Origin: Levilactobacillus fuyuanensis
GTDB taxonomy: Bacteria; Bacillota; Bacilli; Lactobacillales; Lactobacillaceae
Direction of reading: 5' to 3'
Length of the DNA: 37,926 nt
Assembly: GCF_003946395.1 (NCBI RefSeq)
Contig: NZ_RHNZ01000022.1
Coordinates: 1 to 37,926, forward strand
A program made the translations under genes and the position numbers. The notes beneath the pieces were generated by a model that was given only the letters and a program-made list of their open reading frames with translations, did not search any database and was not told the origin of the DNA. Numbering within the stretch: the first letter of the stretch is position 1; each line of letters opens with the position of its first letter. Shown in pieces: positions 3,541 through 34,897 of this stretch.

Positions 3541-4623
3541 TTATTCGTCAGCCCGACGATAGACGTCGACTTGATTCTCATCACCAGATTTTAGCTGTGT
3601 AAGTCCGGCTGAAATTGTGATGTCAATGGGCTGTCCAGAATGCTTAAAGGCTGTTGCTTTAACTCGATTGGCGATCTCGTCCACAATCGTGCGTGCGCGT
3701 TCTGACGTGTAACCAGCAAAGATGATAGTAAATTCTTCGCCACCAGTTCGGTAGAGTTGAAGTGTTGGGTCGCTTGCCCTGAGTTCCTGCATAATTAGAC
3801 GAGAGACGGTCGTTAACACATAATCACCAGCTAAGTGGCCATAGGTGTCGTTGACGTGCTTGAATCGGTCAATATCAAAGAGCATGAGTGTCAGTGGTTC
3901 TTCACGGTTCTGAGCATGGTCAAAGGCCTGACCAAAGTTATTTTTATATGCATAGAAGTTATGTGCGTGGGTCAGTTCGTCAAAATTAGTCGTGTAAGTC
4001 AATTGTGCAAGTGTATTGGCACCGGCAAGAACGGCATCGATGTAGACAAACATAATAGTCATGAAGAAAAAGCTAAACAAGATTTCCCAGCCAATTGTCA
4101 CGGGATGTAAGTCAAATCGAAATTTCATGACCATCCACATCGCTGTTGAGAAGGCAAGGTTGACTAAGCTATAGTCAACAAAGTCTTGCCAGGCATGATG
4201 GCGATGCTGCTTAATCACCTTCATAGCGAAGTACAGACCAACGTAGATCGCTGCAAATAGCCAAGACAGGGGGATGGTCAATGTTCCGTTAATGCCCATA
4301 AAAGCCACGATGACGATGGCCATCTGCCAGAATTTGATTTCTAATTGTAAAAAATAGGCGATGAATACAACGGCAAATATTTGAAAATTAACGAAGACCC
4401 AACCGTTTTGAGTTCCGTCAACGGAGAGTTGGGCGCCAACAATCAAGATGGCCATGTACAACAAACCAATGATGGTTCGCACCCTGTTGACATCAATATT
4501 CGGATGTCGCTTTTGCAGATGTTTGGTTAAATGATCGGTTATAAACCAATAAAGGGTCAGCACGCCTAACAGGAAGAATACACTGGTGAAGGCGGGCGTC
4601 ACGAACCACTGGGCCCAAGTCAT
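3541..4623 (-). CDS. Membrane diguanylate cyclase (GGDEF), C-terminus lost to an in-frame stop
   Basis: A 360-residue protein with about six N-terminal membrane segments and a C-terminal GGDEF domain that would make cyclic-di-GMP from two GTP. The metal-binding segment is LMLFDIDRFKHVNDTYGH and the active-site loop is RTGGEEF (GGEEF at about residue 294). Downstream of the TAA at 3541-3543, the same frame continues as LYYSKRHGRDQVTVG to a second stop at 3493. Read through, the product is 376 residues, exactly the length of the paralogue at 4762-5892, which has Ser at the stop position. A single base change probably converted a serine codon to TAA, removing the last 16 residues of the conserved GGDEF C-terminal helix region. 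The active site is intact, so activity could be reduced or lost. No canonical RxxD inhibitory site sits five residues before GGEEF. Confidence 0.88.
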   Translation of the reverse strand: MTWAQWFVTPAFTSVFFLLGVLTLYWFITDHLTKHLQKRHPNIDVNRVRTIIGLLYMAILIVGAQLSVDGTQNGWVFVNFQIFAVVFIAYFLQLEIKFWQMAIVIVAFMGINGTLTIPLSWLFAAIYVGLYFAMKVIKQHRHHAWQDFVDYSLVNLAFSTAMWMVMKFRFDLHPVTIGWEILFSFFFMTIMFVYIDAVLAGANTLAQLTYTTNFDELTHAHNFYAYKNNFGQAFDHAQNREEPLTLMLFDIDRFKHVNDTYGHLAGDYVLTTVSRLIMQELRASDPTLQLYRTGGEEFTIIFAGYTSERARTIVDEIANRVKATAFKHSGQPIDITISAGLTQLKSGDENQVDVYRRADE

Positions 4624-4712
4624 GTTAAGTCATCCATTCTATAATTTTTTTGAAATGCGTCTTGTATCGTACCACAGGCAGCGGTTTAACGCCACAACTT
4701 TTGTGGTTGGTA

Positions 4713-4744
4713 ATAAAAGGACTCAGAACTATTGTTCCGGGTCC
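4713..4744 (-). terminator. Terminator of the second GGDEF gene
   Basis: An 11-nt stem with one mismatch (4719-4729 with 4734-4744), flanked by an A-rich left side that gives TTTTATTA on the minus strand. It separates the transcripts of the two tandem GGDEF genes. Confidence 0.7.
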
Positions 4745-4761
4745 TAATTGTCGCTGTTTCT

Positions 4762-5892
4762 TTAACCGATTGTGACTTGATCTCGTCCATGACGTTTAGA
4801 GTAATAGAGGCTTTCATCAGCGCGACGATAGAGGTCAACCTGGCTACCATCGTCGATTTTAAGTTGTGTAATACCAACCGAGATACTAATATCGATAGTC
4901 TTACCAGCGTGCTGAAATTCGGCCTCACGGACACTTTGGGCAATCGCATCGACGTGTTCACGAGCTTGACTAACTGTGTAGTTGTCAAAAATAATGGTAA
5001 ACTCTTCGCCACCTGTTCGATAAAGGATGAGTGAGGGATCAATTGCTTTTAGTTGTTGCGTAATCAGCCCAGCAACGTGAGTCAATACATAGTCGCCGGT
5101 CAGATGTCCATAAGTGTCATTCACGTGCTTGAAGTGATCAATATCGAACAACATTAATGTTAGGGGATGTTTCTCCGTTTGTGCATCTTTGAATTGATGA
5201 CCAAAGGCCCTTTTAAAGGAATAAAAGTTGTGGACTCGAGTCAATTCATCATAGTTCGTCGTGTAAGTGAGTTGCGCTAATGTGTCCGCGCCAGCCAACA
5301 AGGAATCAACGTAAATATACATAATCGTCAGCAGAACAAAACTGAATAATATTTCCCAGGAGATAACGCTCCAGGATAAATGGAACCGTAACCGCATCAG
5401 CCACCATAAAATTGCAGAAAAGAGAAGGGCAGTGCTGGCAAAGTCCATGTAATTACGCCAAGGACTGTGTAAATGGTGCTTAATATTCTTCATGGTCAAG
5501 TAGAAGCCAATGTAAACGACAGCGTACGCCCACGAGAGCCCAATTGTGAGGGTGCCATCAATCAACATAAAGAGGAGGGTGGCCAAGGCAAATTGCCAGA
5601 CCCGAATCTCCAACATTAAGAAGTAGCTCACGAAGACGACCGCAAATATCTGGAAATTAGTAAAGACCCAGCTGTGATCGGTTCCGCTGACCGAGGCTTG
5701 CGTTGTAATCAAAAGAATGACCATGTAAATGAGTCCGACAATTGTGCGGACGTGGTTAGCGTTAGGATGTTGACCGCGATTCTCCATGTATTTAATTAGT
5801 TTACTGGTCAAGAACCAGTAGAGGGTCAGGACGCCCAGCAGAAAAAAGATACTGGTAAAGGCGGGCTCCACAAACCATTTGGACCAGGTCAT
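4762..5892 (-). CDS. Membrane diguanylate cyclase (GGDEF), intact paralogue
   Basis: A 376-residue protein with an N-terminal multi-pass membrane sensor region (about six segments in residues 10-215) and a C-terminal GGDEF domain predicted to synthesise cyclic-di-GMP. The nucleotide/metal motif is LMLFDIDHFKHVNDTYGH, the catalytic loop is RTGGEEF (GGEEF at about 294-298), and the C-terminal RRADESLYYSKRHGRD segment is complete. It is collinear and equal in length with the neighbour at 3493-4623. The two genes also share the sequence just before the start (ATAGAATGGATGAC), so this is a tandem gene duplication. The start is weakly supported by GGATGA only. Signal sensed by the membrane domain: unknown. 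Confidence 0.92.
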   Translation of the reverse strand: MTWSKWFVEPAFTSIFFLLGVLTLYWFLTSKLIKYMENRGQHPNANHVRTIVGLIYMVILLITTQASVSGTDHSWVFTNFQIFAVVFVSYFLMLEIRVWQFALATLLFMLIDGTLTIGLSWAYAVVYIGFYLTMKNIKHHLHSPWRNYMDFASTALLFSAILWWLMRLRFHLSWSVISWEILFSFVLLTIMYIYVDSLLAGADTLAQLTYTTNYDELTRVHNFYSFKRAFGHQFKDAQTEKHPLTLMLFDIDHFKHVNDTYGHLTGDYVLTHVAGLITQQLKAIDPSLILYRTGGEEFTIIFDNYTVSQAREHVDAIAQSVREAEFQHAGKTIDISISVGITQLKIDDGSQVDLYRRADESLYYSKRHGRDQVTIG

Positions 5893-5993
5893 GAGTTGTC
5901 ATCCATTCTATAATTGACTGCTTAAAAAAGTATTCACTACTTATATATTAACGCGCAAAACTTAATTGGACTACCCCATTGTGCGAAATTTCG

Positions 5994-6037
5994 TAAGAAA
6001 TAAGGAGTCAGCCTGAATATATGATTCGGGCGACTCC
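5994..6037 (-). terminator. Terminator of the EAL gene
   Basis: A long imperfect stem GGAGTC..GCC..GAAT with ATTC..GGC..GACTCC (6004-6018 with 6024-6037). The A-rich left flank reads TTATTTCTT on the minus strand. Confidence 0.8.
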
Positions 6038-6041
6038 CTGT

Positions 6042-6689
6042 TTAGACCAGACTAGGTTTGCCATAAAGGTAACCTTGATGTAGCGAAATGCCAAATTTTT
6101 TAGCCAGGGCTTGGTCTTTGGCATCTTCAACACCTTCAAGAATCAATTGCAGACGGTAATATTTTGCAACTTTAGACCAAAAGGCCAGGGCGTCAGGAAT
6201 TTCCTTGGCCCGACCGTCCATCCGCAGATTTTGCATAGCAAATTTAATCTGGTCGACGAAGGGGAGAAGATGCTGAATATTATCGTAAGTATTTGATCCA
6301 GTACCGACGTCGTCTAAGACCAGAGCGATGCCATACTGATGAATAGCTGTACTAAAGAGCTGAATTTCCGGTAAGGTAGGGGCTTCAGTAAGTTCAATCG
6401 TTAAGGCAGCTGGGTTCAATCGCTTCTTAAGCGCAATAATGGTCCCCAGGGTGAGGGGATCACGTAGTTGTTGGTTGTTGAGGTTAAAGGCCAGTACCTG
6501 CTGATTAATTGCTGTATTTAAGGCATTAGCTGTTTCTTCTAAAAGTCTGGCTTGTTCTCCCACTGAGATATCGGTGAAATGTTGGGGGAGCACCCACGTT
6601 TCATTTTGCTGCTTACGCAGGAGGACCTCATAGCCAAATACTTTATGATCATCTTGATTAATTTGTGGTTGCACAAAAAAACGATACAT
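6042..6689 (-). CDS. Stand-alone EAL-domain cyclic-di-GMP phosphodiesterase
   Basis: A 215-residue soluble protein consisting of only an EAL domain, predicted to hydrolyse cyclic-di-GMP to pGpG. The signature reads EVLLR (Glu21), followed by FNLNN, IELTE, LDDVGTG, DQIKFA, LILEGVED and QGYLYGKP. The Glu, Asn, Asp-Asp, Lys, Glu and Gln positions used for metal and substrate binding all appear present, so it is probably active despite EVL replacing EAL. The start at 6689 follows AAAGGAG; the reading from 6716 lacks such a site. With the two GGDEF genes on the same strand it forms a compact make-and-break c-di-GMP module, although each gene has its own terminator. Confidence 0.9.
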   Translation of the reverse strand: MYRFFVQPQINQDDHKVFGYEVLLRKQQNETWVLPQHFTDISVGEQARLLEETANALNTAINQQVLAFNLNNQQLRDPLTLGTIIALKKRLNPAALTIELTEAPTLPEIQLFSTAIHQYGIALVLDDVGTGSNTYDNIQHLLPFVDQIKFAMQNLRMDGRAKEIPDALAFWSKVAKYYRLQLILEGVEDAKDQALAKKFGISLHQGYLYGKPSLV

Positions 6690-6716
6690 TTGGGTCGACT
6701 CCTTTAAATTTTTCAA

Positions 6717-17091: not shown

Positions 17092-18237
17092 ATGGTTAAG
17101 GGAATCAAATGGGTCATGGCGGGGAGCCTCATGGTCTTTGGGGGTGTCATGGCTAGCGAGCTTGGTCCTGCTCAGACAGCACAAGCGGCCAGCACAGTTA
17201 AAACCAGGTATGCGCTTGGTAATTATCAAGCCAAAAAGTTCAAGTGGGTTCAGAACAAAAATGAATATGTCCCACACCCCAAGGCTTATGCCTGGTCAAT
17301 GACCTACCAAAAGCAGGGGACGTTTCAAACACAACCAATGACCTACACGACCCGCCGGGGGAATGCGCCGGCTACTCTGACGACTGACCTCTATCTGCCG
17401 GTTACCGTCCAGAGTTCTGGCGATTGGGGTAATCCCCAGAGTGTCGTCCTGACCAAGAATGGTCGAACGGCTTACGTGGGTTACTTGGCAACGGGGACCA
17501 CGAGTACGGGGTGGATCGTGAAGTATGATCTGGCCAAGTTGCGGCAGAAATTTGGCGCAAGTTCGGGGCACATGGCTCTCATCCGGCAAGCTACCAATGC
17601 CTATTCTAAAGGAAAGTCGGCGTCACAGCAGAAAACGGTGATGGCGGCCATGCAGATTGGGTCTACGTTTGACATAGGTCACGGCCAATCGTTGGCATTG
17701 AATCCGCGAACGCAACAGCTCTGGCTGAGTCGGACAAGTGGAGAAGACGGCCGGTATGGCAGTGCCGTGCAGGTCTCGACCCGTACCTTACGGCCAGTCC
17801 GGACGGTGGACTATCGGTTGGTCAATAAGACCGGTGCCAAGTTGGCCGTCAATAGTACTCTGACGTTTGATAAACGCGGGTACGCTTACTTCAGCAGTTA
17901 CAGTGGTAAGCGATCCCTGCGCGTTTATCGGGGAACCATGTCTAAGAAGGGTGTCCACTTCAACCTGGTCATGCAGGGGCTAAAATACCGGCCTGGACAG
18001 ACACATCAGTCGATTGCCTACAATGCCAAGAATGATCGGCTCTACTTTGTCAGCGACGATGCGATTTCTTCCGTGCCGTTGGCGAAGTTGAACCGCAGTA
18101 AGGTCAAGCCTAAAAATGTGAAAGCCACGGTCTTTGCCAGCAGTCGTGAGTTCGAAGGCCTGTCATTTTCCGGCGGTGGCCAAGCGTATGTGCTCTTGAA
18201 TCGCGGACCGGAATTAATGCGGTTAACCTTTAGATAG
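17092..18237 (+). CDS. Secreted protein of unknown function, probable beta-propeller-like repeats
   Basis: A 381-residue exported protein. The N-terminus is a typical signal peptide: basic MVKGIKW, a hydrophobic core, and a likely cleavage after AQA in TAQAAS (about residue 32). The mature part is rich in Thr, Ser, Gly, Tyr and Lys. It contains recurrent strand-like units such as SVVLTKNGRTAYVGYL, SLALNPRTQQLWLSR, LTFDKRGYAYFSSYSG and SIAYNAKNDRLYFVSD, each reminiscent of a propeller blade with a YVxx/LYFVS strand. No catalytic motif and no LPXTG, LysM or choline-binding signal is visible, so it is probably released. GAGGGGGAG precedes the ATG. It is transcribed alone. I do not assign a function. 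Confidence 0.85.
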   Translation: MVKGIKWVMAGSLMVFGGVMASELGPAQTAQAASTVKTRYALGNYQAKKFKWVQNKNEYVPHPKAYAWSMTYQKQGTFQTQPMTYTTRRGNAPATLTTDLYLPVTVQSSGDWGNPQSVVLTKNGRTAYVGYLATGTTSTGWIVKYDLAKLRQKFGASSGHMALIRQATNAYSKGKSASQQKTVMAAMQIGSTFDIGHGQSLALNPRTQQLWLSRTSGEDGRYGSAVQVSTRTLRPVRTVDYRLVNKTGAKLAVNSTLTFDKRGYAYFSSYSGKRSLRVYRGTMSKKGVHFNLVMQGLKYRPGQTHQSIAYNAKNDRLYFVSDDAISSVPLAKLNRSKVKPKNVKATVFASSREFEGLSFSGGGQAYVLLNRGPELMRLTFR

Positions 18238-18276: not shown

Positions 18277-18350
18277 GTAGTTACTTTAATCAGAGTAAGA
18301 ATGTCCCTCCGTTTAAGAAAGACAACATTTCATTTTAAAAGCTAACTTAG

Positions 18351-18550
18351 CCGGAAGAGGCCAGAGATGGAACCAGCTGTGACGACGGTGTTAGATTGGG
18401 CATTTGTTTCTTCCAATCGTACAGCGTGGGACGTGTTGGGAAACTCGCATGAACTTTGCGAGGTTTCCAACCGAGCCGGAAGCCCGTTCTTGGGCTGCAG
18501 GTGGTCCCCACAGCAGGTGGAATCTCTGGCAGCTGCAGGCGGCAGTTTTT
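18351..18550 (+). ncRNA. Structured RNA element, copy A (new family candidate)
   Basis: About 200 nt closed by paired arms: CCAGAGAT (18361-18368) with ATCTCTGG (18522-18529), ACC with GGT, and GCTGTG (18376-18381) with CACAGC (18509-18514). Inside are hairpins GATTGG/CCAATC (18394-18399, 18413-18418), a 15-nt stem at 18435-18449 with 18457-18471, and AGCCC/GGGCT (18481-18485, 18492-18496). A T5 run (18546-18550) ends it on the plus strand. In the 15-nt stem one non-Watson-Crick position is a G-U pair on the plus strand but a C-A mismatch on the minus strand, which favours plus. It shares sequence motifs with copies B (24555-24736) and C (27836-27979). No promoter is clear. Small open frames inside it are incidental. 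Confidence 0.5.
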
Positions 18551-18557
18551 AAAATGA

Positions 18558-19892
18558 TTAAGCTAAAGCACCCATTGGATCCCATGGTGCCAAGACCGTT
18601 GGTTCTTCAGTTTCTTGAGTCTTCTTTAAGTCGTCAGGCAGGAATTGCTTGTTCACAACAACTTGGTAGCAGTATTCATCCATCCAAGCGTCGCTCATCA
18701 CGAAGTAACCCTTCGTGCCGACCTTTTCACCCCAAGAGTTTTCAACCTTCCACTTGGTTGGTTGGCCATCGACTAAGTCGACACCAGTCAAGACCATAGC
18801 GTGGGTCATCATGCTTTCCCCGTAGTCCAGGCGTTCTGCCTTGGTCGTGGAGAAGTCAATGTTGAAGAGGGCATCCTTGTCGTAGAACTTGGTGTCCATG
18901 ATCCCCTTTTGACGTTCTGAGGATTGACCAACATCACAACCGAACCATACGGATTGGCCAGCTTGCAATTGCTTGATGGCCAAAGCCTTGAAGTCCTTCA
19001 TCGTGACGTTTAAATGCTTTACTTGACGGCCGTTGACCACGTTACCCAGCATTTCAACTGTGTAGGTATGGTTGTAAGGCTTGTCGTCAGTAGGGGCGTT
19101 GATGATGGAAACGTAATCGCTCAGGTCCCAGTTGACGTACTTGTCAAAGAAGGACTTAGGGGTTAAGCCCTTGTCGATGTGGTAGTTCTTATCGTCATCG
19201 CGGTATTCGAAATCGAATTCGCTAACGGGTTCGCCGAGTGAGAAGCTCAGTAAGCGGTAAACTTCACCAAGCATCTTGTCTTTAGCAGCGGCAATGTCAG
19301 CATCGCTGGTCTTGTCGGCAACTAATTTACGTAAAGTTACGGCGTCTTTCCGTAGCTTTAAGTTCAACGTGCTGTTGAGTTCGCTTGACTTGGAACTGTT
19401 GTAAGTTTCAGGCATAACGGACTTAGGCACGATCCCGTATTTTTCAATGATGGCACACAGCATGTCCCATTGACCACCATCTTGTTGTGGGGTAGCCATT
19501 AAGAAGGCGACCTTACGGCTAGACGTTGGTTGGTCGGCAGTAGCCAAGACGTTTTCGTAGAAGTAGTTGGCTTTTTCAAATTTGTCCCAGAAGTTGGTGT
19601 AGTTCTGAGATAATTCGAAGTCACTCAAATTGAAGAGGTCGGCTAAATGATGACGCATGGTGTTCAATGCGGCAAACATCCAGCAACGGCCACTTTGCTT
19701 TTGGTTAGCAACTTTCCCAGTGTCCAAATCAATGGAGAAGACGGGAGTCATGTCGGTTTCAGAAGCATAATCGGCAGAGGTTGCTAAGATTCCCTGATGG
19801 CTGACGGCGCGTTCTAAAACCTTTGCGGTGGGGTCGGCAGCTAAAGCTTGTTGATAACGGGCGGTTTGGTCCGCCGTGATTTCTTTACTCAA
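18558..19892 (-). CDS. pepC: Aminopeptidase C (bleomycin hydrolase family)
   Basis: A 444-residue cytosolic cysteine aminopeptidase (peptidase family C1B) that releases N-terminal residues from peptides and supports growth on milk or protein-derived peptides. The catalytic cysteine is Cys70 in KQSGRCWMFAALN, the histidine is in MMTHAMVLTGVD and the asparagine in KVENSWGEKVGTKGYF. The papain-like bleomycin hydrolase layout and length are complete. The start is the TTG at 19892 (MSKEI..., as in other lactobacilli), 10 nt after TAGGAGA; the GTG at 19901 directly abuts that site. It is monocistronic on the minus strand. Confidence 0.95.
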   Translation of the reverse strand: MSKEITADQTARYQQALAADPTAKVLERAVSHQGILATSADYASETDMTPVFSIDLDTGKVANQKQSGRCWMFAALNTMRHHLADLFNLSDFELSQNYTNFWDKFEKANYFYENVLATADQPTSSRKVAFLMATPQQDGGQWDMLCAIIEKYGIVPKSVMPETYNSSKSSELNSTLNLKLRKDAVTLRKLVADKTSDADIAAAKDKMLGEVYRLLSFSLGEPVSEFDFEYRDDDKNYHIDKGLTPKSFFDKYVNWDLSDYVSIINAPTDDKPYNHTYTVEMLGNVVNGRQVKHLNVTMKDFKALAIKQLQAGQSVWFGCDVGQSSERQKGIMDTKFYDKDALFNIDFSTTKAERLDYGESMMTHAMVLTGVDLVDGQPTKWKVENSWGEKVGTKGYFVMSDAWMDEYCYQVVVNKQFLPDDLKKTQETEEPTVLAPWDPMGALA

Positions 19893-20056
19893 TGACGTCA
19901 CTCTCCTAACTTATTTCTCTCATTGTACTCCAATATTCTCATTTTTTGTATAGATACCCAAAAGTTGTTTAAAAATAGGTGAGACGAGTAGGCAAAATCT
20001 AGGTGCAAACTGAATGAAGAGATTTCAGTGAAAGCAGCGTTAGTTCTATCGCAAAT

Positions 20057-20098
20057 TAAAAGGGCCTCTCAATACGACGGGTATCGAGAAGTCCTTAT
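20057..20098 (-). terminator. Terminator of the aldo/keto reductase gene
   Basis: An imperfect 16-nt stem (AAGGGCCTCTCAATAC with GTATCGAGAAGTCCTT) flanked on the left by AAATTAAAA, which is a U-rich tract on the minus strand. Confidence 0.7.
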
Positions 20099-20143
20099 TA
20101 GAAAACGCGTTAACTTTAAGGTTACTTGAATAACTAGCCCAGT

Positions 20144-20950
20144 TTAATCGTAGTTAAGGTGCTTGTCCTGATCGAGGGCGTTGATTTCAGCGATTTCAGC
20201 GGCAGTTAAGTTAAAGCCGGAAATTTCAAAGTTTTCCTTGACCCGTGCTGGTTTTGAGGACTTAGGGAAGACCACGAAGCCCGTGTCGACTTGCCACCGT
20301 AAAACAATCTGAGCGGGTGACTTGCCGTATTTTTCAGCTAACTTGGTAATCACGGGGTCTTCGAGAATCAAGTGACCGTGACCAATTGGGGAGTACCCTT
20401 CGTTGATCAGACCGTTGTCCGTGTCGAACTTGCCTAACTCGGCTTGTACCTTGTAAGGGTGGCGTTCGATTTGGTTGACCATTGGCTTAACCTTAGCCAT
20501 GGCGAAGACTTGTTCGAGTTGGTTTTCGGAGAAGTTTGAGACACCGATAGCTCGAACCTTTTTTTGTTGGTAGAGGGTTTCTAGGGCCCGCCAAGTATCC
20601 AAGGTCAGATCGAAGTTTTCTTCGTTAGGCCAGTGAATCAGGTATAAGTCCAAGTAGTCCAACTGTAAGTCGGCTAACGTCTTGTCAAAAGCAGCCAAGG
20701 TCTTGTCGTAACCTTGATCAGCGTTCCAAACCTTAGACGTGATGAATAGGTCGGACCGGTCGATGCCGGAGGCCTTGATAGCTGCGCCCACGGCTGGTTC
20801 ATTGCCGTAAATGTGTGCACAGTCGAGATGCCGATAGCCAGCGTCTAAGGCCGTCTTGATGGCTGCGGGGACGTCCTTGCTGTCAATTAAGTAAGTTCCG
20901 AATCCTAACATTGGGATGGTAACGCCGTTGCTTAATTGTGTCGTTTCCAT
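20144..20950 (-). CDS. Aldo/keto reductase (2,5-diketogluconate reductase type)
   Basis: A 268-residue NAD(P)H-dependent reductase with the (beta/alpha)8 fold of the aldo/keto reductase family, reducing aldehydes and ketones. The catalytic tetrad is visible: Asp and Tyr in AGYRHLDCAHIYGNE, Lys in ITSKVWN and His in LIHWP. VRAIGVSNFSENQLE and the NADPH-binding VVFPKSSKPARVKENFEI segment are present. The start is the ATG at 20950 after GCGAGG; the longer frame to 20998 lacks a ribosome binding site. It is transcribed alone. The physiological substrate is unknown. Confidence 0.93.
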   Translation of the reverse strand: METTQLSNGVTIPMLGFGTYLIDSKDVPAAIKTALDAGYRHLDCAHIYGNEPAVGAAIKASGIDRSDLFITSKVWNADQGYDKTLAAFDKTLADLQLDYLDLYLIHWPNEENFDLTLDTWRALETLYQQKKVRAIGVSNFSENQLEQVFAMAKVKPMVNQIERHPYKVQAELGKFDTDNGLINEGYSPIGHGHLILEDPVITKLAEKYGKSPAQIVLRWQVDTGFVVFPKSSKPARVKENFEISGFNLTAAEIAEINALDQDKHLNYD

Positions 20951-21077
20951 GTAATTACCTCGCTCTACAAATATTTTAAAGCATATAAACACATACATTC
21001 ATGATACACTACTGTGCCAATAGTTTCATGGATTAACCCTTGTTGTGTGCGATAGGGGGTGAAATAAGCGGGATTAG

Positions 21078-21125
21078 AAAAGTCACCCAGCCGATTCCAT
21101 CATTAGCATTGGCTGGGTGACTTTT
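21078..21125. terminator. Bidirectional terminator downstream of rpiA
   Basis: A perfect 15-bp stem AAAAGTCACCCAGCC/GGCTGGGTGACTTTT (21078-21092 with 21111-21125) with an 18-nt loop. Terminal A and T runs make it usable in both directions. Confidence 0.9.
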
Positions 21126-21146
21126 AATACGTTAATTTAGCAAAGA

Positions 21147-21833
21147 TTAGTCGCGCGCGTTCAAGACTTCTGGACCGTCTTGACGACCAACGATAACCGT
21201 GTTAACCGTGTCCAAGAACAGACCGTGTTCAACAACACCCACGATGCCATTTAAGGTGTTGGCTAATTCGTGGGGATGGTCGATGCGACCCAAGTGTAAG
21301 TCGATGATATAGTTCTTGGAATCAGTCAAGACATGGCTACCGTCTTCGTTCATCCGGAAGCTAGGGTGTAAGTCCATCTTGTCTAACTTTTCCAGAACGT
21401 GGCTGGAACCGAATGGAATAACTTCCAATGGCAATGGGAACTTGCCCAAGTGGTGAACCATCTTGCTTTCGTCGACGATCCACATGTTCTTTGTGGAGTT
21501 GATAGCAACGATCTTTTCCCAAAGGTGAGCGGCACCGCCACCCTTGATCCCTTGGAAGTTGTCGTCGATTTCGTCGGCGCCGTCGATGGTTAAGTCGAGG
21601 TGATCAACTTCGTCCAATTGCTTGATCGTAATACCAAGAGATTCGGCTTGCTTAGCGGAACGGTCTGACGTAGCGACCCCCACGATGCTCAAGCCTTCCT
21701 CTTTGACGCGCTTACCTAAAGCATCGATCATGTAGCGAACGGTCGAGCCGGTCCCGATTCCTAAAATCATGCCATCCTTTACGTACTTGACGGCTTCTTG
21801 GCCAACGAGGGCTTTTAATGCGTTTTGATCCAT
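21147..21833 (-). CDS. rpiA: Ribose-5-phosphate isomerase A
   Basis: A 228-residue enzyme interconverting ribose 5-phosphate and ribulose 5-phosphate in the pentose phosphate/phosphoketolase route. Diagnostic motifs are [17 protein letters not shown] (phosphate binding), [10 protein letters not shown] with the catalytic Asp, and [15 protein letters not shown] (catalytic Glu/Lys region). The length is full. It starts 5 nt after the stop of the upstream GNAT-like gene, and its ribosome binding site AGAGGAG lies inside that gene's last codons, so the two are probably translationally coupled. Confidence 0.97.
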
Positions 21834-21838
21834 CTTAA

Positions 21839-22177
21839 CTACTCCTCTTCTATGTGTTCTGGGTGTAAGGCAACTGGTCGCACGGCATCCGCACCGCTAA
21901 CGGGCAATTGATGTGCCGCTAGGAAGTCGGCGGGGTGGGCCGCAAAGTAACGTTTGGCGTACGGGTCCAGTAATTTCACGCTGACTTGGGCGGTCGTTGC
22001 CAGTTGGGTAAAACGTTTTATCAGTTGCTCAGCTAACGTGGTAGCGGGCTGGGCAGGGCGCACAAAGATTTGTTCGAGAACCCACGTGGATTCGTCTAAA
22101 CAAAGGTAGTGGAGACTTGCCAATAGCCGGCTATCGTCAACGATTGCCAGCTCACCTGGATGTTCCGTAATCGTCAT
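21839..22177 (-). CDS. Small GNAT-like acetyltransferase (YjdJ-type)
   Basis: A 112-residue protein resembling the compact YjdJ-type GNAT domain. It has strands [20 protein letters not shown] and [11 protein letters not shown], an acetyl-CoA-binding-like helix region [14 protein letters not shown], and the family ending [19 protein letters not shown], which matches the usual CPYVxxYLxxHPEY pattern with Cys replaced by Leu/Asp. The substrate is unknown. AAAGGAG precedes the ATG. It is cotranscribed with rpiA; the Glu-rich C-terminus (EHIEEE) ends 5 nt before the rpiA start. Confidence 0.75.
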
Positions 22178-22328
22178 GGTTACTTGCTCCTTTCGTGACC
22201 AGATTCACTCCTAATTCTGGTCTATCCACGTGGCCTTGTCAACTAATTTTCGCTGGCGGATAATTTTGCTGGCATTCTCATGGAAAGGTAGGTACTCTAG
22301 TAAGAGGTTAGTCGAAATCTGACCTAAT

Positions 22329-22356
22329 TTGTATTTTGATTACAGGGTGTTAGAAT
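22329..22356 (+). promoter_or_regulatory. Promoter of dut
   Basis: TTGTAT (22329-22334) and TAGAAT (22351-22356) are spaced 16 nt apart, about 90 nt before the dut start. The stretch between is very AT-rich. Confidence 0.4.
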
Positions 22357-22449
22357 GAACAGTCATGGCGTCAATATGAACCATGATCAATTATAAAAAA
22401 TAATGACTATTAATTTAGAACTAATTATAGAAATAAAAGGAGTGTCACA

Positions 22450-22989
22450 ATGCATCGAGGATTTGAAATTGTCAGTAAATATGAAGCACAAGATATCAAG
22501 GTTCCTTACCGCACAACACAACAGGCCGCGGGATATGATTTTGAGTGTGCTGAGGACTTTACGTTGCCCTCTATTTGGCGGCACGACCTACTCCACGCCT
22601 TCAAGCGGCTTTGGCACCGTGATCCGCTGACGACTGAAGAATTGGTCGCTGGGCAACATAACTTGAAACCGTGGTTGGTGCCTACGGGAGTCAAGGCCTA
22701 CATGGAACCTGGTGAGGTTCTTTTACTGGCGAACCGGTCGAGCAATCCCCTGAAGCACAACTTGATTCTGCCCAATGGGGTTGGGGTGATCGACGCGGAT
22801 TATTATAATAATGAAAAGAACGAGGGCGAGATCTTTGTTCAATTGGTCAATGTTGGGCTGAAAGATCAAGTTATTAAGAAGGGACAACGCATTGCCCAGG
22901 GGATTTTTATGCCATTTTTACTGGCCGATGGGGAACAGATTCCAAGCCAGCAACGCATTGGTGGTTTTGGGTCCTCTGATCGCAACTAA
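22450..22989 (+). CDS. dut: dUTP diphosphatase, trimeric type
   Basis: A 179-residue enzyme hydrolysing dUTP to dUMP and PPi, preventing uracil misincorporation and supplying dUMP for thymidylate. The five dUTPase motifs are recognisable: I AAGYDFEC, II NRSSNPLKHNL, III NGVGVIDADYYNN, IV IKKGQRIAQGIF, V RIGGFGSSD. Compared with a minimal dUTPase (about 150 residues) there is an insertion of about 30 residues between motifs I and II (around IWRHDLLHAFKRLWHRDPLT). AAAAGGAG lies before the ATG. It leads the conserved block, with radA 94 nt downstream. Confidence 0.93.
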   Translation: MHRGFEIVSKYEAQDIKVPYRTTQQAAGYDFECAEDFTLPSIWRHDLLHAFKRLWHRDPLTTEELVAGQHNLKPWLVPTGVKAYMEPGEVLLLANRSSNPLKHNLILPNGVGVIDADYYNNEKNEGEIFVQLVNVGLKDQVIKKGQRIAQGIFMPFLLADGEQIPSQQRIGGFGSSDRN

Positions 22990-23083
22990 ATCTTTACATT
23001 TGAAGCTGATAGACTAGTGGGGAAACACCCCCGAGATATGCTAAAATGAAAGTGCTGAAAGTAAACGGATAAGGGGGATGAAC

Positions 23084-24460
23084 GTGGCTAAAACGAAAAC
23101 AAAATTTGTCTGTCAGAACTGTGATTATAGCTCCCCCCGGTATCTGGGACGCTGCCCGAATTGTGGGGAGTGGAACACCATGGTCGAAGAGGTCATCACA
23201 CCGGCTGCAGCCAAGCCTCAGTCAACGCGAACGACGGTGACTGGCGAGCATTCTAAGCCGCAACTGATGAATGATATCAAGCACACGACGGAAATGCGGG
23301 TCAAGACCCAAATGAACGAACTCAATCGTGTGTTGGGTGGTGGTATCGTGCCGGGTTCACTGATCCTGATCGGTGGAGATCCTGGTATTGGGAAATCAAC
23401 TCTGCTACTCCAGGTATCCGGCCAGTTAAGTGCGACCGGGGGTAAGGTGCTCTACGTCTCTGGGGAAGAAAGTGCCTCACAGATCAAGATGCGCGCTGAC
23501 CGATTGGTCGTCAACAGCGACAATCTTTACCTCTATCCGGAAACGGACATGGCCAGCATCCGGGCTAACATCGAGGAGATGCAGCCGGATTACGTGGTCA
23601 TTGACTCCGTCCAAACGATGCAGGCGCCCGGAATTGAATCGGCGATCGGGTCTGTTTCCCAGATTCGGGCGGTCACCGGTGAACTGATGCAGATTGCCAA
23701 GACCAACGGCATTACGATCTTTGTCGTGGGTCACGTGACCAAGGGTGGCGCGATTGCTGGTCCTAAGATTCTGGAACACATGGTGGATACTGTGTTGTAC
23801 TTCGAAGGGGACCTGCATCACACTTACCGGATTCTGCGGGCGGTCAAGAACCGTTTTGGCTCGACTAATGAACTAGGGATCTTTGAAATGCGTGAGGGTG
23901 GTCTGTATGAGGTAGCCAACCCCTCGGAAATATTCTTGGAGGAACGCCTCGAGGATGCGACCGGCTCGGCCATCGTGGTCTCGATGGAGGGGACTCGGCC
24001 CATTTTGGTTGAAGTGCAAGCACTGATTTCACCATCCGTCTTCGGTAACGCCCAACGTACGTCGAGTGGGCTGGACCGTAATCGAGTGGCCTTGTTGATG
24101 GCTGTGCTGGAGAAACGGGCTAACCTGATGCTTCAGAACCAGGATGCTTTCCTGAAGGCCGCTGGTGGCGTGAAGCTGGATGAACCAGCGATTGACTTGG
24201 CGATTGCCATGAGTATCGCTTCCAGTTATCGCGACACTGCAACGGAGCCCAGCGATTGTTTCGTGGGTGAGGTGGGGTTGACCGGTGAAATTCGCCGAGT
24301 CAGCCGTATTGAGTCTCGAGTAGCGGAAGCCAAGAAGCTCGGGTTCAAGCGAATTTTCGTCCCTAAGAACAATATGCAAGGCTGGAATCCACCGACCGGC
24401 ATCAAGGTCGTCGGGGTCTCAACCCTGCGGCAGGCTTTGAAACTGGCGCTGGATATTTGA
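23084..24460 (+). CDS. radA: DNA repair ATPase/branch-migration helicase RadA (Sms)
   Basis: A 458-residue RecA-like ATPase that processes recombination intermediates in homologous recombination and natural transformation. An N-terminal zinc finger (CQNC...CPNC), Walker [11 protein letters not shown], a Walker B segment VVIDSVQT, the RadA-specific KNRFG motif and a C-terminal Lon-protease-like domain ([27 protein letters not shown]) are all present. The start is the GTG at 23084, 7 nt after AAGGGGG, giving [10 protein letters not shown]; the ATG at 23078 would touch the ribosome binding site. In Bacillus radA is followed by disA; here the next gene is yacL, with structured element B between. 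Confidence 0.95.
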
Positions 24461-24554
24461 TCTGTGAACGTTTTAGGTAGTGGGCGCGTGACGAGCTGAC
24501 GCGTTTCACATGATTTCGACAGTCATGGTTGTGTTCCTGCAAAGCACTATTGAA
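24461..24554 (+). other. 5' part of the radA-yacL intergenic region
   Basis: No gene. It contains small hairpins, for example CATGA/TCATG near 24509-24527 and GCGT/ACGC near 24485-24501, that may be accessory stems of element B. No terminator with a T-run is visible after radA, so radA and yacL could be cotranscribed through the element. Confidence 0.35.
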
Positions 24555-24736
24555 GCCGTAGAGTCGGTGAAAATGAACCCAGCTGTGGGACTTCTCTTAG
24601 CGGCGGACTGTGCCGGTTAGAGAAGTGGTGTGGCTAAGACGCGTTTTACAGCGGCTTGGACACAAGCCTAAAGGCCGTTCTATGGCTTTAGGCGTCCGCC
24701 CTCAGCGTCACGGTTCATTTTCACCGGCTCGGAGGC
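24555..24736 (+). ncRNA. Structured RNA element, copy B, in the yacL leader
   Basis: Closed by a 19-bp stem (24561-24579 with 24712-24730, one G-U pair) extended outward by GCC/GGC across a 3x3 loop. Next comes GCTGTGGG (24582-24589) with CCCTCAGC (24699-24706). Internal hairpins are ACTTCTCT/AGAGAAGT (24590-24597, 24619-24626) and GCCTAAAGGCC/GGCTTTAGGC (24666-24676, 24684-24693). It shares the GAAAATG, CAGCTGTG, 9-nt gap, TTAG motif and CCCTCAGC with copies A and C. It ends 66 nt before yacL, without a T-run. Either a leader RNA or a repeat element. Confidence 0.55.
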
Positions 24737-24801
24737 GCTGTCAATCTCAGTTTTAGCTTAATCAGTATTACAAAGAAATCAATTTGAAAGGAGGTGAACG
24801 T

Positions 24802-25968
24802 ATGCGTAAGAAAACAGTTATTCTCGTGATCTTCGCCATCCTAGGTGGTGTCATGGGGGTCGCGTATCTTTCCCGCTTCTGGCACGTCATCGGCATGACC
24901 AGTCCGCTTGTCAACAACATCTTAGTTAACATTTTAGTTGGTGCAATTATTTTCCTCATTCTGGGGTTGTTGTTTGCCGGACTGATCATGCGGGTGGTCA
25001 ACAAGCTTGAGGCCTATCTCAACAAGCAGAATCCAATGACGATTCTCTTCGGTAGTTTGGGTGCAATCATTAGTTTGGCGCTGGCCCTACTGATTTCATC
25101 GTTTCTTTTCCGAGTGCCATCGTTCTTCATCAGTACCTTCATTCCATGGATTTTGATGCTATTGTTTGGGTATCTTGGCTTCCGAATCGGGACGCGGTTG
25201 AGTAAGGTGCGAGCCGAAGAATGGCGCAAGTTGTTCCAGTCACGGAGCAAGAAAGCCAGCGAAGAAGAGTCTAAGAAGGTCATCGATAAACAAACGGAGC
25301 CCAACTTCCATCACTATAAGATCTTGGATACCAATATTTTAATTGACGGCCGGATTTATGACCTGGCTAAGACGGGGTTCCTGGAAGGGACGCTGTTGGT
25401 TCCCAATTTCGTGTTGTATGAATTGCAGTACATCGCGGACTCCAGCGACTCCATCAAGCGGGTTCGTGGCCGCCGGGGCTTGGATATCTTAAACAAGCTG
25501 CAGAACGAAAATATTATGCCGATTGAAATGTACGAAGGTGACTTCGAGGATATTCCCGAAGTCGACAGCAAGTTGATTCGACTGGCCAAGGAAAATGGTG
25601 GGGTGATCGTCACCAACGATTACAACTTGAACAAGGTTATTCAGTTCCAAAATGTTCAAGTCCTCAACATCAACTCCTTAGCTAACGCCTTGAAACCACG
25701 GGTAATTCCGGGTGAGAACCTCCACGTCATGGTGGTTAAGAACGGGACCGAACGGCAACAGGGGGTCGCTTATCTCGATGATGGCACGATGGTCGTCGTC
25801 GAAGATGGGAAGTACTTCATCAACAAACAGTTGGATGTGGTGGTGACAAGTGCCATCCAGACCGATGCTGGGCGGATGATCTTTGCCAAGCCCGTGCATT
25901 CTAGCAGAAACATCGAAGAGGATGCCGGGGGCAAGGATCAGTCGAAGAAGCAGAAACGGTCACGGTAA
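24802..25968 (+). CDS. yacL: Membrane PIN/TRAM domain protein YacL
   Basis: A 388-residue protein with four N-terminal membrane segments (about residues 1-125), a cytosolic PIN nuclease domain (KILDTNILIDGRIYD, FVLYELQYIAD, VDSKLIRLAKENGGVIVTNDYNL, with the acidic Asp residues conserved) and a C-terminal TRAM RNA-binding domain (about 320-365), then a charged Lys/Gln/Arg tail. It is predicted to be a membrane-bound RNase; the cellular target is not established. The start at 24802 follows AAAGGAGG; the upstream ATG at 24784 overlaps that site. It lies between radA and gltX as in other Firmicutes, without disA, ispD or ispF. Confidence 0.92.
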   Translation: MRKKTVILVIFAILGGVMGVAYLSRFWHVIGMTSPLVNNILVNILVGAIIFLILGLLFAGLIMRVVNKLEAYLNKQNPMTILFGSLGAIISLALALLISSFLFRVPSFFISTFIPWILMLLFGYLGFRIGTRLSKVRAEEWRKLFQSRSKKASEEESKKVIDKQTEPNFHHYKILDTNILIDGRIYDLAKTGFLEGTLLVPNFVLYELQYIADSSDSIKRVRGRRGLDILNKLQNENIMPIEMYEGDFEDIPEVDSKLIRLAKENGGVIVTNDYNLNKVIQFQNVQVLNINSLANALKPRVIPGENLHVMVVKNGTERQQGVAYLDDGTMVVVEDGKYFINKQLDVVVTSAIQTDAGRMIFAKPVHSSRNIEEDAGGKDQSKKQKRSR

Positions 25969-26118
25969 ATAACCGCTTACTTGAGATTTCTGGGAGAGAT
26001 TAAGGGTCACACCTTTATTTTTCCGGTTGGTCATTGTACACTAAGAACAATGTGTCATCACGCAGATGACAGTTAACACCTAAATTACGTAAATAATGGA
26101 GAAAGAGGCGCAAACGTT
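25969..26118 (+). other. yacL-gltX intergenic region
   Basis: 150 nt without a terminator. CATTGT (26033-26038) and ACAATG (26047-26052) form an inverted repeat around TACACT, a possible -10 box for gltX, but no good -35 box is seen. No T-box signature is present. Confidence 0.3.
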
Positions 26119-27609
26119 TTGGCGAAAAATTCAATTCGGGTTCGGTACGCACCGAGTCCTACCGGTCATTTGCACATTGGTAATGCCCGGACAGCGATCT
26201 TTAATTACTTATTTGCCCGGCACAACAAGGGTAAGTTCATCATCAGAATCGAAGATACCGATACTAAGCGGAACATCGCGGATGGTGAAAGAAGCCAACT
26301 GGAAAACCTGAAGTGGTTAGGCTTGGACTGGGATGAAGGTCCCGATGTTGGTGGCGACTACGGTCCCTACCGGCAATCAGAACGGCGCGACATTTACACG
26401 CCACTGATCCAACAACTGATCGATGAAGGCAAAGCTTACGAATCTTACCGGACGGAAGATGAATTACAAGCCGACCGTGAAGCTCAAAAGGCCCGCAAAG
26501 AAATGCCACATTACGAATACGAATATGCTGGTATGGATGAAGCTGAAAAGCAAGCTGCTATCGATGCTGCTAAAGCTAAAGGCTTGAAGCCAGTTATTCG
26601 TTTCCGCGTGCCTAAGGATGAAATCTTTGCTTGGGACGACATGGTTAAGGGGAACGTTTCCTTTAACTCTGACACCATTGGTGGGGACTTCGTCATTGCT
26701 AAGCGCGATGGGATGCCAACTTACAACTTCGCTGTTGTTGTTGACGACCACAAGATGGCCATTAGCCACGTTTTCCGTGGGGACGACCACGTTGCCAACA
26801 CGCCTAAGCAATTGATGATCTACCAAGCCTTTGGTTGGGATGCACCTAAGTTCGGCCACATGAGCCTGATCATCAGCAAGGACACGGGTAAGAAGTTGTC
26901 CAAGCGTGACGAATCTGTTCTCCAATTCATCGAACAATATCGTGACCTCGGTTACCTGCCAGAAGCCATGTTCAACTTCATTCTGTTGTTGGGCTGGTCT
27001 CCAGTTGGGGAAGATGAAATCTTTAACCGGAAGCAATTCATCAAGATGTACGATGAAACGCGTCTGAGTTCATCACCCGCAACCTTTGATAGCGACAAGC
27101 TGGACTGGTTGAATAACCGTTACGTGAAGGATGCTGATCAAAGCACTATCGTCGACTTGGCCATGAAGCAATTGATCAAGGCGGGTAACATTCCTGCCAA
27201 CCCAGACACGAACACCATCGAATGGTCGCGTCAGTTGATCAACCTGTACAAGCAACAAATGAGCTACATGGCACAGATCAATGATATGGCTTCCGTCTTC
27301 TTCCAAGAACCAGAACAAGTTTCTGGCGACGCTCTGGAAGAAATCAGTAATGACACGGCCCCCGTTGTCTTAAAGGCATTCGCTGAAGAAATCGAAAAGC
27401 TCGATTTGTTTGACTCCGTAGAAATCTTCCACGTGATCAAGCGGGTCCAAGCCAAGACCGGTATCAAGGGTCGTCAATTATGGATGCCAATCCGGATTGC
27501 CGTTACCCACGAAATGCACGGTCCAGAATTACCTGAATCAATCGAATTAGTCGGCCGCAAGACCGCATTACAACACATTCACCAAACTTTGGCCCAACTA
27601 GAAGGCTAA
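26119..27609 (+). CDS. gltX: Glutamyl-tRNA synthetase
   Basis: A 496-residue class I aminoacyl-tRNA synthetase charging tRNA-Glu. The HIGH-type motif is [14 protein letters not shown] and the KMSKS-type motif is [10 protein letters not shown]; the catalytic Rossmann fold and the helical anticodon-binding C-terminus are complete. In lactobacilli this enzyme is usually non-discriminating and also charges tRNA-Gln for GatCAB amidation (family knowledge). Translation starts at TTG (26119) after GAGG at 10-nt spacing. It is followed by a strong terminator, so cysS is separately transcribed. Confidence 0.97.
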
Positions 27610-27622
27610 CGTTTTGGTAAAG

Positions 27623-27662
27623 AAGCCGAATGAGGGGCCATTGGCCGTCCATTCGGCTTTTT
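27623..27662 (+). terminator. Terminator after gltX
   Basis: AAGCCGAATG/CATTCGGCTT with inner GGCC pairing, then TTTTT (to 27662). Confidence 0.88.
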
Positions 27663-27678
27663 GCTAACCGCTCTGGTA

Positions 27679-27687
27679 TGCTACAAT
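27679..27687 (+). promoter_or_regulatory. Extended -10 promoter of the cysS leader
   Basis: TGCTACAAT (TACAAT at 27682-27687) is an extended -10 box. TTGCTA (27661-27666) is a possible but closely spaced -35 box. The transcript would start near 27694 and carry a leader of about 360 nt. Confidence 0.45.
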
Positions 27688-27699
27688 GGAGCTAACTCA

Positions 27700-28016
27700 T
27701 TCGACATCCTTGGGTTGGCGGTTATGTCGCCTCCCGGGTGGTTTTGAAGATGCTGATTGGATACCAATGTGTGCGTCAGTTCATATCATTATATGAGTGA
27801 CAATTGCGTAGGGGGATAGGTCAGTGTAAGCCGGAGGTTGGTTCTGGAGATGCTCAGGTGTGTCGTTTTCCTTGGCTGAGTGATTTACTCGGTCTAGGAA
27901 AAGGCCAAGCTTGAAGACTCGTGTTTTTTGGCGAGGCTTCAAGTTGCGCCCACCCGTTCCAGTATCTCCAGAACCAACCGGGAGGCGAAATCAATTGCCC
28001 ACTCAGCGATGTCGAA
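27700..28016 (+). ncRNA. Structured cysS leader containing RNA element copy C
   Basis: Nested long-range pairings: TTCGACATC (27700-27708) with GATGTCGAA (28008-28016); CGCCTCCCGG (27728-27737) with CCGGGAGGCG (27978-27987); and a perfect 16-bp stem 27836-27851 with 27964-27979 that closes copy C. Inside copy C are GGTG (27857-27860) with CACC (27951-27954), a hairpin TTTTCCT/AGGAAAA (27866-27872, 27896-27902) and CTTGAAGACTCG/CGAGGCTTCAAG (27910-27921, 27932-27943). Copy C shares GAGATG, CAGGTGTG, a 9-nt gap, TTGG and GCCCACC with copies A and B. No T-box sequence (AGGGTGGNACCGCG) and no terminator T-run is present, so this is not a standard tRNA-Cys T-box. Confidence 0.6.
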
Positions 28017-34745: not shown

Positions 34746-34866
34746 GTTGTATTTAATAGATCCTACCTAAGACTCAGGTGGCCTAATGGTCTTAATTTCC
34801 TGCCGAGGCAGAAGTTTACTTAAACTTTTGACTCCTTATGTCTTGGTGGCATAGGGATTTTTTAAT
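34746..34866 (+). promoter_or_regulatory. Ribosomal protein L10 leader with attenuator
   Basis: The leader between promoter and rplJ has the layout of the L10 leader known in Firmicutes: paired segments (AGACTCAGGTGGCCTAATGGTCT and CTGCCGAGGCAG) followed by an intrinsic terminator, TCCTTATG/CATAGGGA with a T6 run (about 34831-34862). L10(L12)4 is known to bind such leaders and repress the operon; here termination is the likely mechanism. Confidence 0.75.
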
Positions 34867-34897
34867 CCCACCAAACTTTTCCGGGAGGTGAAATAAT

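Follow-up and report, generated by a model that had tools for sequence, protein, structure and literature searches.

A high-copy family of structured intergenic repeats in Lactobacillaceae that probably behaves as a non-autonomous mobile element

In this study, we analyzed a 37,926-nucleotide stretch of Levilactobacillus fuyuanensis DNA (contig NZ_RHNZ01000022.1, positions 1 to 37,926; hereafter the window), in which a first-pass annotation had pointed out three intergenic copies, A, B and C, of a large structured element. These copies probably (probability about 0.68) represent a new high-copy, non-autonomous family of Lactobacillaceae that resembles miniature inverted-repeat transposable elements (MITEs) and carries a structured domain selected on one strand. 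The MITE-like features were terminal inverted repeats (TIRs; in L. suantsaiihabitans), dispersed copies, the lack of a transposase gene inside the unit, and the presence or absence of copies between close relatives. MITE-type behavior with terminal repeats was observed in L. suantsaiihabitans and presumably extends to the other genomes. Among the possibilities first proposed, that of an old mobile repeat is favored by the terminal repeats, the flanking direct repeats and the differences in occupancy between species.

First, the family was far larger than the window suggested. Two covariance models were used, R1 for type I (B-like; 13 sequences) and R2 for type II (A-like; 12 sequences). Within the 2,718,279-base (2.72 Mb) genome, a part of 1,613,950 bases (1.61 Mb), some of it picked for known matches, was searched with both models; 172 copies were listed, weak and cut matches being excluded, and they occupied 1.97% of the searched bases. 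The majority (116) were nearer type II and 56 were nearer type I, and neither strand of the contigs was preferred (88 plus and 84 minus). When R1 was used by itself on the whole genome, 142 matches at E<=1 were obtained after scoring 150 of 962 candidates. The signature YCAGSTGTG, followed by 9 nt and TTRG, occurred 27 times in the genome (16 forward and 11 reverse, compared with 0 and 1 for the reversed control), and all of these sites except L005 shared the same fold, with energies of about -92 to -119 kcal/mol. Of 39 cases of neighboring copies no more than 700 bp apart, 35 were divergent, the 5' ends pointing toward each other; the median gap was 226 bp. Covariance models revealed many more copies in this genome and across Lactobacillaceae; A, B and C are real and represent three sub-types rather than the only three copies.

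Second, the core showed strong covariation. It spans about 140-195 nt and consists of a closed stem with two or three arms. In the common plan, which was derived in part by visual inspection of the folds, the closing stem has GNA-type internal loops near its foot, the inner stem contains CAGCUGUG facing a CACAGC-like sequence, and the first arm, with a UUAG/CUUA-type internal loop, is followed by one or two more arms. In 52 type I copies, 97.7% of cells were paired (83.6% in shuffles), 43 of 60 pairs showed two-sided changes and the covariation score was 0.453, compared with at most 0.102 when partner columns were slid; the corresponding values for 86 type II copies were 95.8% (85.2% in shuffles), 51 of 62 pairs and 0.356 (at most 0.087). 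Sliding the partner columns by 1-3 positions lowered pairing to 28-51% of cells. These two alignments (A6 and A7) were fitted to the models, which biases them towards the structure; two-sided changes were also present in 29 of 60 and 31 of 62 pairs of MAFFT alignments (A2 and A3). The covariation proposed from only three copies was borne out. A C.A opposition was noticed in the otherwise conserved inner stem CAGC[C/U]GUG (A6 columns 32/157 and A7 columns 30/181): among the 86 type II copies, 56 had C.A and 26 had U-A, and among the 52 type I copies the numbers were 19 and 18, so that C.A was commoner than U-A in type II and about equally frequent in type I.

Third, the fold is kept in resident copies, on one strand and whatever the neighboring genes. 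On the sense strand, G-U cells exceeded A-C cells by 123 to 29 in type I and by 157 to 51 in type II (majority-GU pairs and the conserved C.A pair omitted). We further examined 39 copies that were in place in a related genome (G007; 94% identical over gltX-cysS), 32 of which were usable. Changed core pairs were still paired in 62% of cases on the sense strand and in 46% on the antisense strand (70% and 53% in a smaller first set), whereas the figure was only 39% for the outer arms and 38% for pairs in the local flanks. The core was also less divergent than the 45-nt flanks (7.1% versus 16.2%; lower in 28 of 32 copies), and retention on the sense strand was similar in all three gene contexts sampled, at 61% where both neighbors were antisense and at 64% and 60% in the remaining two. 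Since wobble is tolerated on the sense strand and orthologs tend to keep pairing, it appears that the fold of one strand is under selection. The outer arms were rejected as a selected helix because they decay like flanks. The first-pass view, which set a conserved RNA fold against recent repeat copies, was not supported, since both apply: the fold is conserved, and it belongs to a high-copy repeat that is still turning over.

Evidence of mobility came from a recent burst in L. suantsaiihabitans (genome G293, reached via locus L064), in which cores were up to 98% identical among 20 fetched copies. Alignment of six copies revealed a unit of about 640 bp with 13-bp TIRs and two cores pointing outward, in the order TIR CTGAAGGTTGAAA, type II core (minus strand), spacer of about 100 nt, type I core (plus strand), tail and mirrored TIR. 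Among 20 loci picked for strong type I matches, 11 also had a type II core above 100 bits, and all 11 were divergent. The TIR had 109 matches with no more than one mismatch, compared with 2 in the control (control values, 0 and 2). In 13 units with both ends, lengths were 637-640 bp in four and 153-729 bp in the others. Six of these 13 were flanked by perfect 6-8-bp direct repeats, allowing an offset of up to 1 nt (CTGTATAA, TTAATCAG, TTTTGCT, TTACCAA, TTTTTA and TCGTAA; 0.6% in swapped controls), and five had no direct repeats. The longest stop-free stretch in one 637-bp unit was 97 codons. This two-core unit explains both the divergent pairs in the window's genome and the short 3' distances found there, where the nearer gene was on the 3' side for 39 of the 45 single and 42 of the 45 paired copies. 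Of 42 unit ends, 11 had an intrinsic terminator directed toward the unit and 9 had one directed away from it (7% and 7.5% in controls); terminators were rejected as insertion targets, the enrichment being only mild. At the start of contig C11 (L302), a fragment of an ISL3-type transposase was observed beside a 476-bp unit carrying both end motifs; no matching ends were found on the fragment itself.

The three window copies, all on the plus strand, are members of one family, and every feature first listed for them was present at the stated place. Copy A (18350-18541; R2, 213.4 bits) has a type II core with a closing stem, an inner stem containing CCAGCTGTG and three arms in its minimum free energy (MFE) fold, and is included in alignment A7; its signature, CCAGCTGTG, 9 nt and TTAG, lies at 18373-18394. 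Copy B (24554-24737; R1, 199.7 bits; alignments A2 and A6) has a type I core with three arms and the same signature at 24579-24600. Copy C (27829-27987; R1, 56.2 bits; R2, 61.4 bits) adopts a two-arm form in its MFE fold, with the signature TCAGGTGTG, 9 nt and TTGG at 27854-27875. All three are intergenic: A lies between the gene at 17092-18237 and pepC, B between radA and yacL, and C between gltX and cysS, with B and C preceding yacL and cysS, respectively, on the coding strand. The names pepC, RadA, PIN-domain YacL, GltX and CysS agreed with Pfam matches. The 17092-18237 gene upstream of A encodes a 381-aa protein that looks secreted by eye and had no Pfam match at 1e-5. Elsewhere in the window, a compact cyclic-di-GMP cluster was observed at 3541-6716 (minus strand), with two adjacent GGDEF-domain genes and one EAL-domain gene.

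Comparison between species revealed that copies come and go. A comparison with G007 was possible for 74 of the 172 copies, of which 39 were in the same place, 27 lay in intergenic regions that did not align and 8 faced an empty site. At the 27 unaligned sites the G007 side also carried a copy, often of another type. Two losses were visible as deletion remnants. The closest named locus to the window was that of L. parabrevis (L089; gltX 99% identical), in which the core at the A site was deleted apart from about its first 20 nt, the B site had a type II copy within a different intergenic sequence, and C was conserved at the same site. The 323-bp radA-yacL block around B (24459-24781, plus strand) could not be aligned to the 333-bp block of L. 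parabrevis and was missing at ten other loci (L058-L066 and L096), which aligned through the flanks with 19-27 bp between the aligned parts. This block is one example of the many copy-bearing intergenic regions that were unalignable between the window's genome and G007 although their genes were about 94% identical. Such regions suggest either insertion hot spots or an exchange of complete intergenic regions. That entire blocks had been inverted was not favored, the inverted score being clearly higher at only three of 19 unaligned sites.

With regard to distribution, 23 of 24 genomes of the same genus were positive at E<=1e-5, and none of 16 genomes from other families of the order was positive in the same search, so that the family was restricted to Lactobacillaceae among the genomes tested. 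Within Lactobacillaceae, 74 of 251 genomes and 11 of 40 genera had matches at E<=1e-3 in a survey that scored 10 candidates per genome, so misses are expected. Ten of 27 genomes reached by name contained a match: Levilactobacillus zymae, L. namurensis, L. suantsaiihabitans, Lactobacillus sp. HBUAS51381, Secundilactobacillus mixtipabuli, S. silagincola, S. oryzae, Schleiferilactobacillus perolens, Companilactobacillus furfuricola and Pediococcus argentinicus. The 17 named genomes with no match included six of Lentilactobacillus, two of Paucilactobacillus and one each of Apilactobacillus, Fructilactobacillus, Agrilactobacillus, Lacticaseibacillus and Pediococcus pentosaceus. In Schleiferilactobacillus perolens, the best 16 of 79 copies all had the C-like two-arm fold. 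A search of the whole window against Rfam 15 at the gathering score gave no family for A, B or C. The sole match was a ribosomal protein L10 leader at 34748-34872. With a lax threshold, all matches obtained for A, B, C and a G293 unit fell short of the gathering score, the highest reaching 19.8 bits where 36 were required. Riboswitch, T-box, 6S, SRP and tmRNA had no gathering-score match (Rfam, and ARAGORN on the window) and only a few chance-like matches below threshold; the first-pass annotation had not recognized any of these classes either. A phage search with A gave no match. No report of the family was found in the open-access PMC literature, supplements and subscription papers being outside this scope, so an unnamed listing is possible.

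Several observations weigh against a MITE-like origin. In L. suantsaiihabitans, the search for an autonomous element sharing these ends found none: by eye, the open reading frames at 20 TIR regions were ordinary-looking genes, and none of five transposase matches (three Pfam families tried in a draft assembly) had matching ends. In the window's genome, target duplications were not detectable (5 of 157 copies at >=7/8; 3.5% in controls), and the core flanks were copy-specific inverted complements, mainly in the first 45 nt (81 of 140 scoring at least 11, versus 2.6%), a feature that a plain MITE does not explain. The ends also differed in S. perolens, being GTGCCAATGC-like, by pattern, in 9 of 14 examined. 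A search of 72,556 plasmids with B, with C and with part of a G293 composite gave no match, which is unusual for a transposon (a control radA-yacL search gave gene matches and short chance matches). Finally, resident copies are constrained, which suggests that selfish mobility is not the whole explanation.

In the window's genome, the G293 end motif was weakly enriched at -20 to -23 and at +17 to +18 of the core (16 versus 6 downstream and 13 versus 6 upstream in 155 copies), and direct repeats flanked 6 of 140 copies (3.0% in controls). Flanks were unrelated even between copies whose cores were up to 93% identical. A shared long 5' extension of the unit was not found in the window's genome, upstream flanks being mostly unrelated between copies; 35 pairs matched at E<0.01 (0 in shuffles), some of them overlaps of neighboring copies and some sharing a hairpin-like stretch. 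The inverted flanks decay without compensation and are thus remnants either of the insertion or of the site itself. In two places (C45:153456 and C34:145106), a relative without a copy still had a hairpin by eye. Because the same core occurs in several genera with different ends, and because inverted flanks in the window's genome are copy-specific, it is conceivable, though unlikely, that the structured RNA itself is the conserved and selected unit, spreading in an RNA-dependent or RNA-guided manner and repeatedly acquiring new ends or hairpin sites. The folded core would then be kept functional in hundreds of resident copies.

Under the MITE-like interpretation, a unit consists of one core or of two cores pointing outward, with their 3' ends near the unit ends and their 5' ends facing. 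A putative DDE-type transposase acting in trans, which was not found, would move such units into intergenic sites. After insertion the shape of the core would be kept, and the fold would presumably be put to use, mattering on the sense strand either to the host or to onward mobility. It would most likely act as a transcribed self-folding RNA and less likely as folded single-stranded DNA.

A stricter version of the latter possibility, in which the family is a folding single-stranded DNA substrate (REP/RAYT-like or attC-like) whose sense hairpin is read by a recombinase and never as RNA, also received a low probability. High copy number, divergent pairs like those of REPINs and BIMEs, cores between inverted flanks, and the lack of both a promoter signal and a contig strand bias would fit it. 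However, G-U tolerance and the GNA-type internal loops (by eye) look RNA-like, the TIRs and 6-8-bp direct repeats of L. suantsaiihabitans point to DNA transposition with staggered cuts, and selection of the fold in transposition alone would leave the compensation in resident orthologs unexplained.

Nor do we favor independent trans-acting small RNA genes, multiplied by duplication and each with its own promoter, although structural selection was strand-specific regardless of neighbor orientation, the nearest gene was more distant on the 5' than on the 3' side in 39 of the 45 single copies, so that a promoter would have space, and the spacer of G293 composites had weak promoter-like pairs towards type I (p 0.02-0.14 in six of eight related copies; 0.59 and 0.86 in the other two). 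In a scan for sigma-A-type promoters, no signal was found upstream of elements (1.3% strong sites versus 0.6% antisense, n=157), whereas 338 gene upstream regions gave 10.7% versus 1.5%, and the mostly unrelated upstream flanks also argue against such genes. A trans-acting RNA with its own sigma-A promoter, one of the options raised initially, therefore lacks the signal that ordinary genes show. Regions directly 3' of elements had 7.7% strong sites (0.6% antisense), which we take to be promoters of the next genes.

The least probable reading, in which the element acts in cis on neighboring genes as a leader, an attenuator or an mRNA-stability element, draws on the intergenic positions of all three window copies, on the coding-strand location of B and C ahead of yacL and cysS, and on the reported or proposed action of ERIC and NEMIS on adjacent transcripts (PMC2229807), but it fails, as does the general leader element suggested earlier, on the lack of a consistent orientation to genes (27/28/19/16 of 90 copies in the four neighbor-orientation classes, simple open reading frame calls) and on the similar structural constraint in the three contexts sampled.

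About 2% of the Levilactobacillus sequence examined belongs to one structured repeat that is not cataloged by Rfam. The family offers hundreds of natural variants of one strongly covarying fold together with a recent transposition burst, and raises the question of why a mobile element retains a strand-specific, RNA-like structure once inserted. The covariance model could now be used for annotation of Lactobacillaceae genomes, in which caution is needed because copies can resemble new riboswitches.

Among known systems, the bcr1 repeats of the Bacillus cereus group, another Firmicute family, are about 150 bp long, high in copy number and mobile, with a conserved RNA fold; going by this general description, the present family is similar in size, copy number, mobility and fold and differs in host range. 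HEARO/IscB omega-RNAs and other large Rfam RNAs are also structured and tied to mobile elements, and in many cases numerous copies stand alone. The present family differs in that no Rfam match reached the gathering score. REPIN repeats and RAYT transposases are grouped with REP/BIME repeats, whose palindromes have a conserved tetranucleotide. REP/BIME repeats exceed 100 copies per genome and are extragenic with alternating orientation (PMC2817692), and REPs are palindromes of 20-40 bp (PMC3733652); copy number, extragenic location and alternating orientation are alike, and length alone does not fit, our cores being about 140-195 nt. ERIC, NEMIS/Correia, Yersinia YPAL/RU-2 and similar repeats, as described in PMC2229807, are about 100-170 bp long, mostly intergenic and foldable as RNA, with empty and filled sites reported for a Yersinia element. 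According to the same review, other bacterial repeats form one stem-loop from their two ends, two arms being noted for CIR only. The present family shares the mostly intergenic location, the RNA-foldable nature and the similar size of these repeats, whereas its multi-branched core, heavy two-sided covariation, constraint on resident copies and divergent two-core composites set it apart from what is described there.

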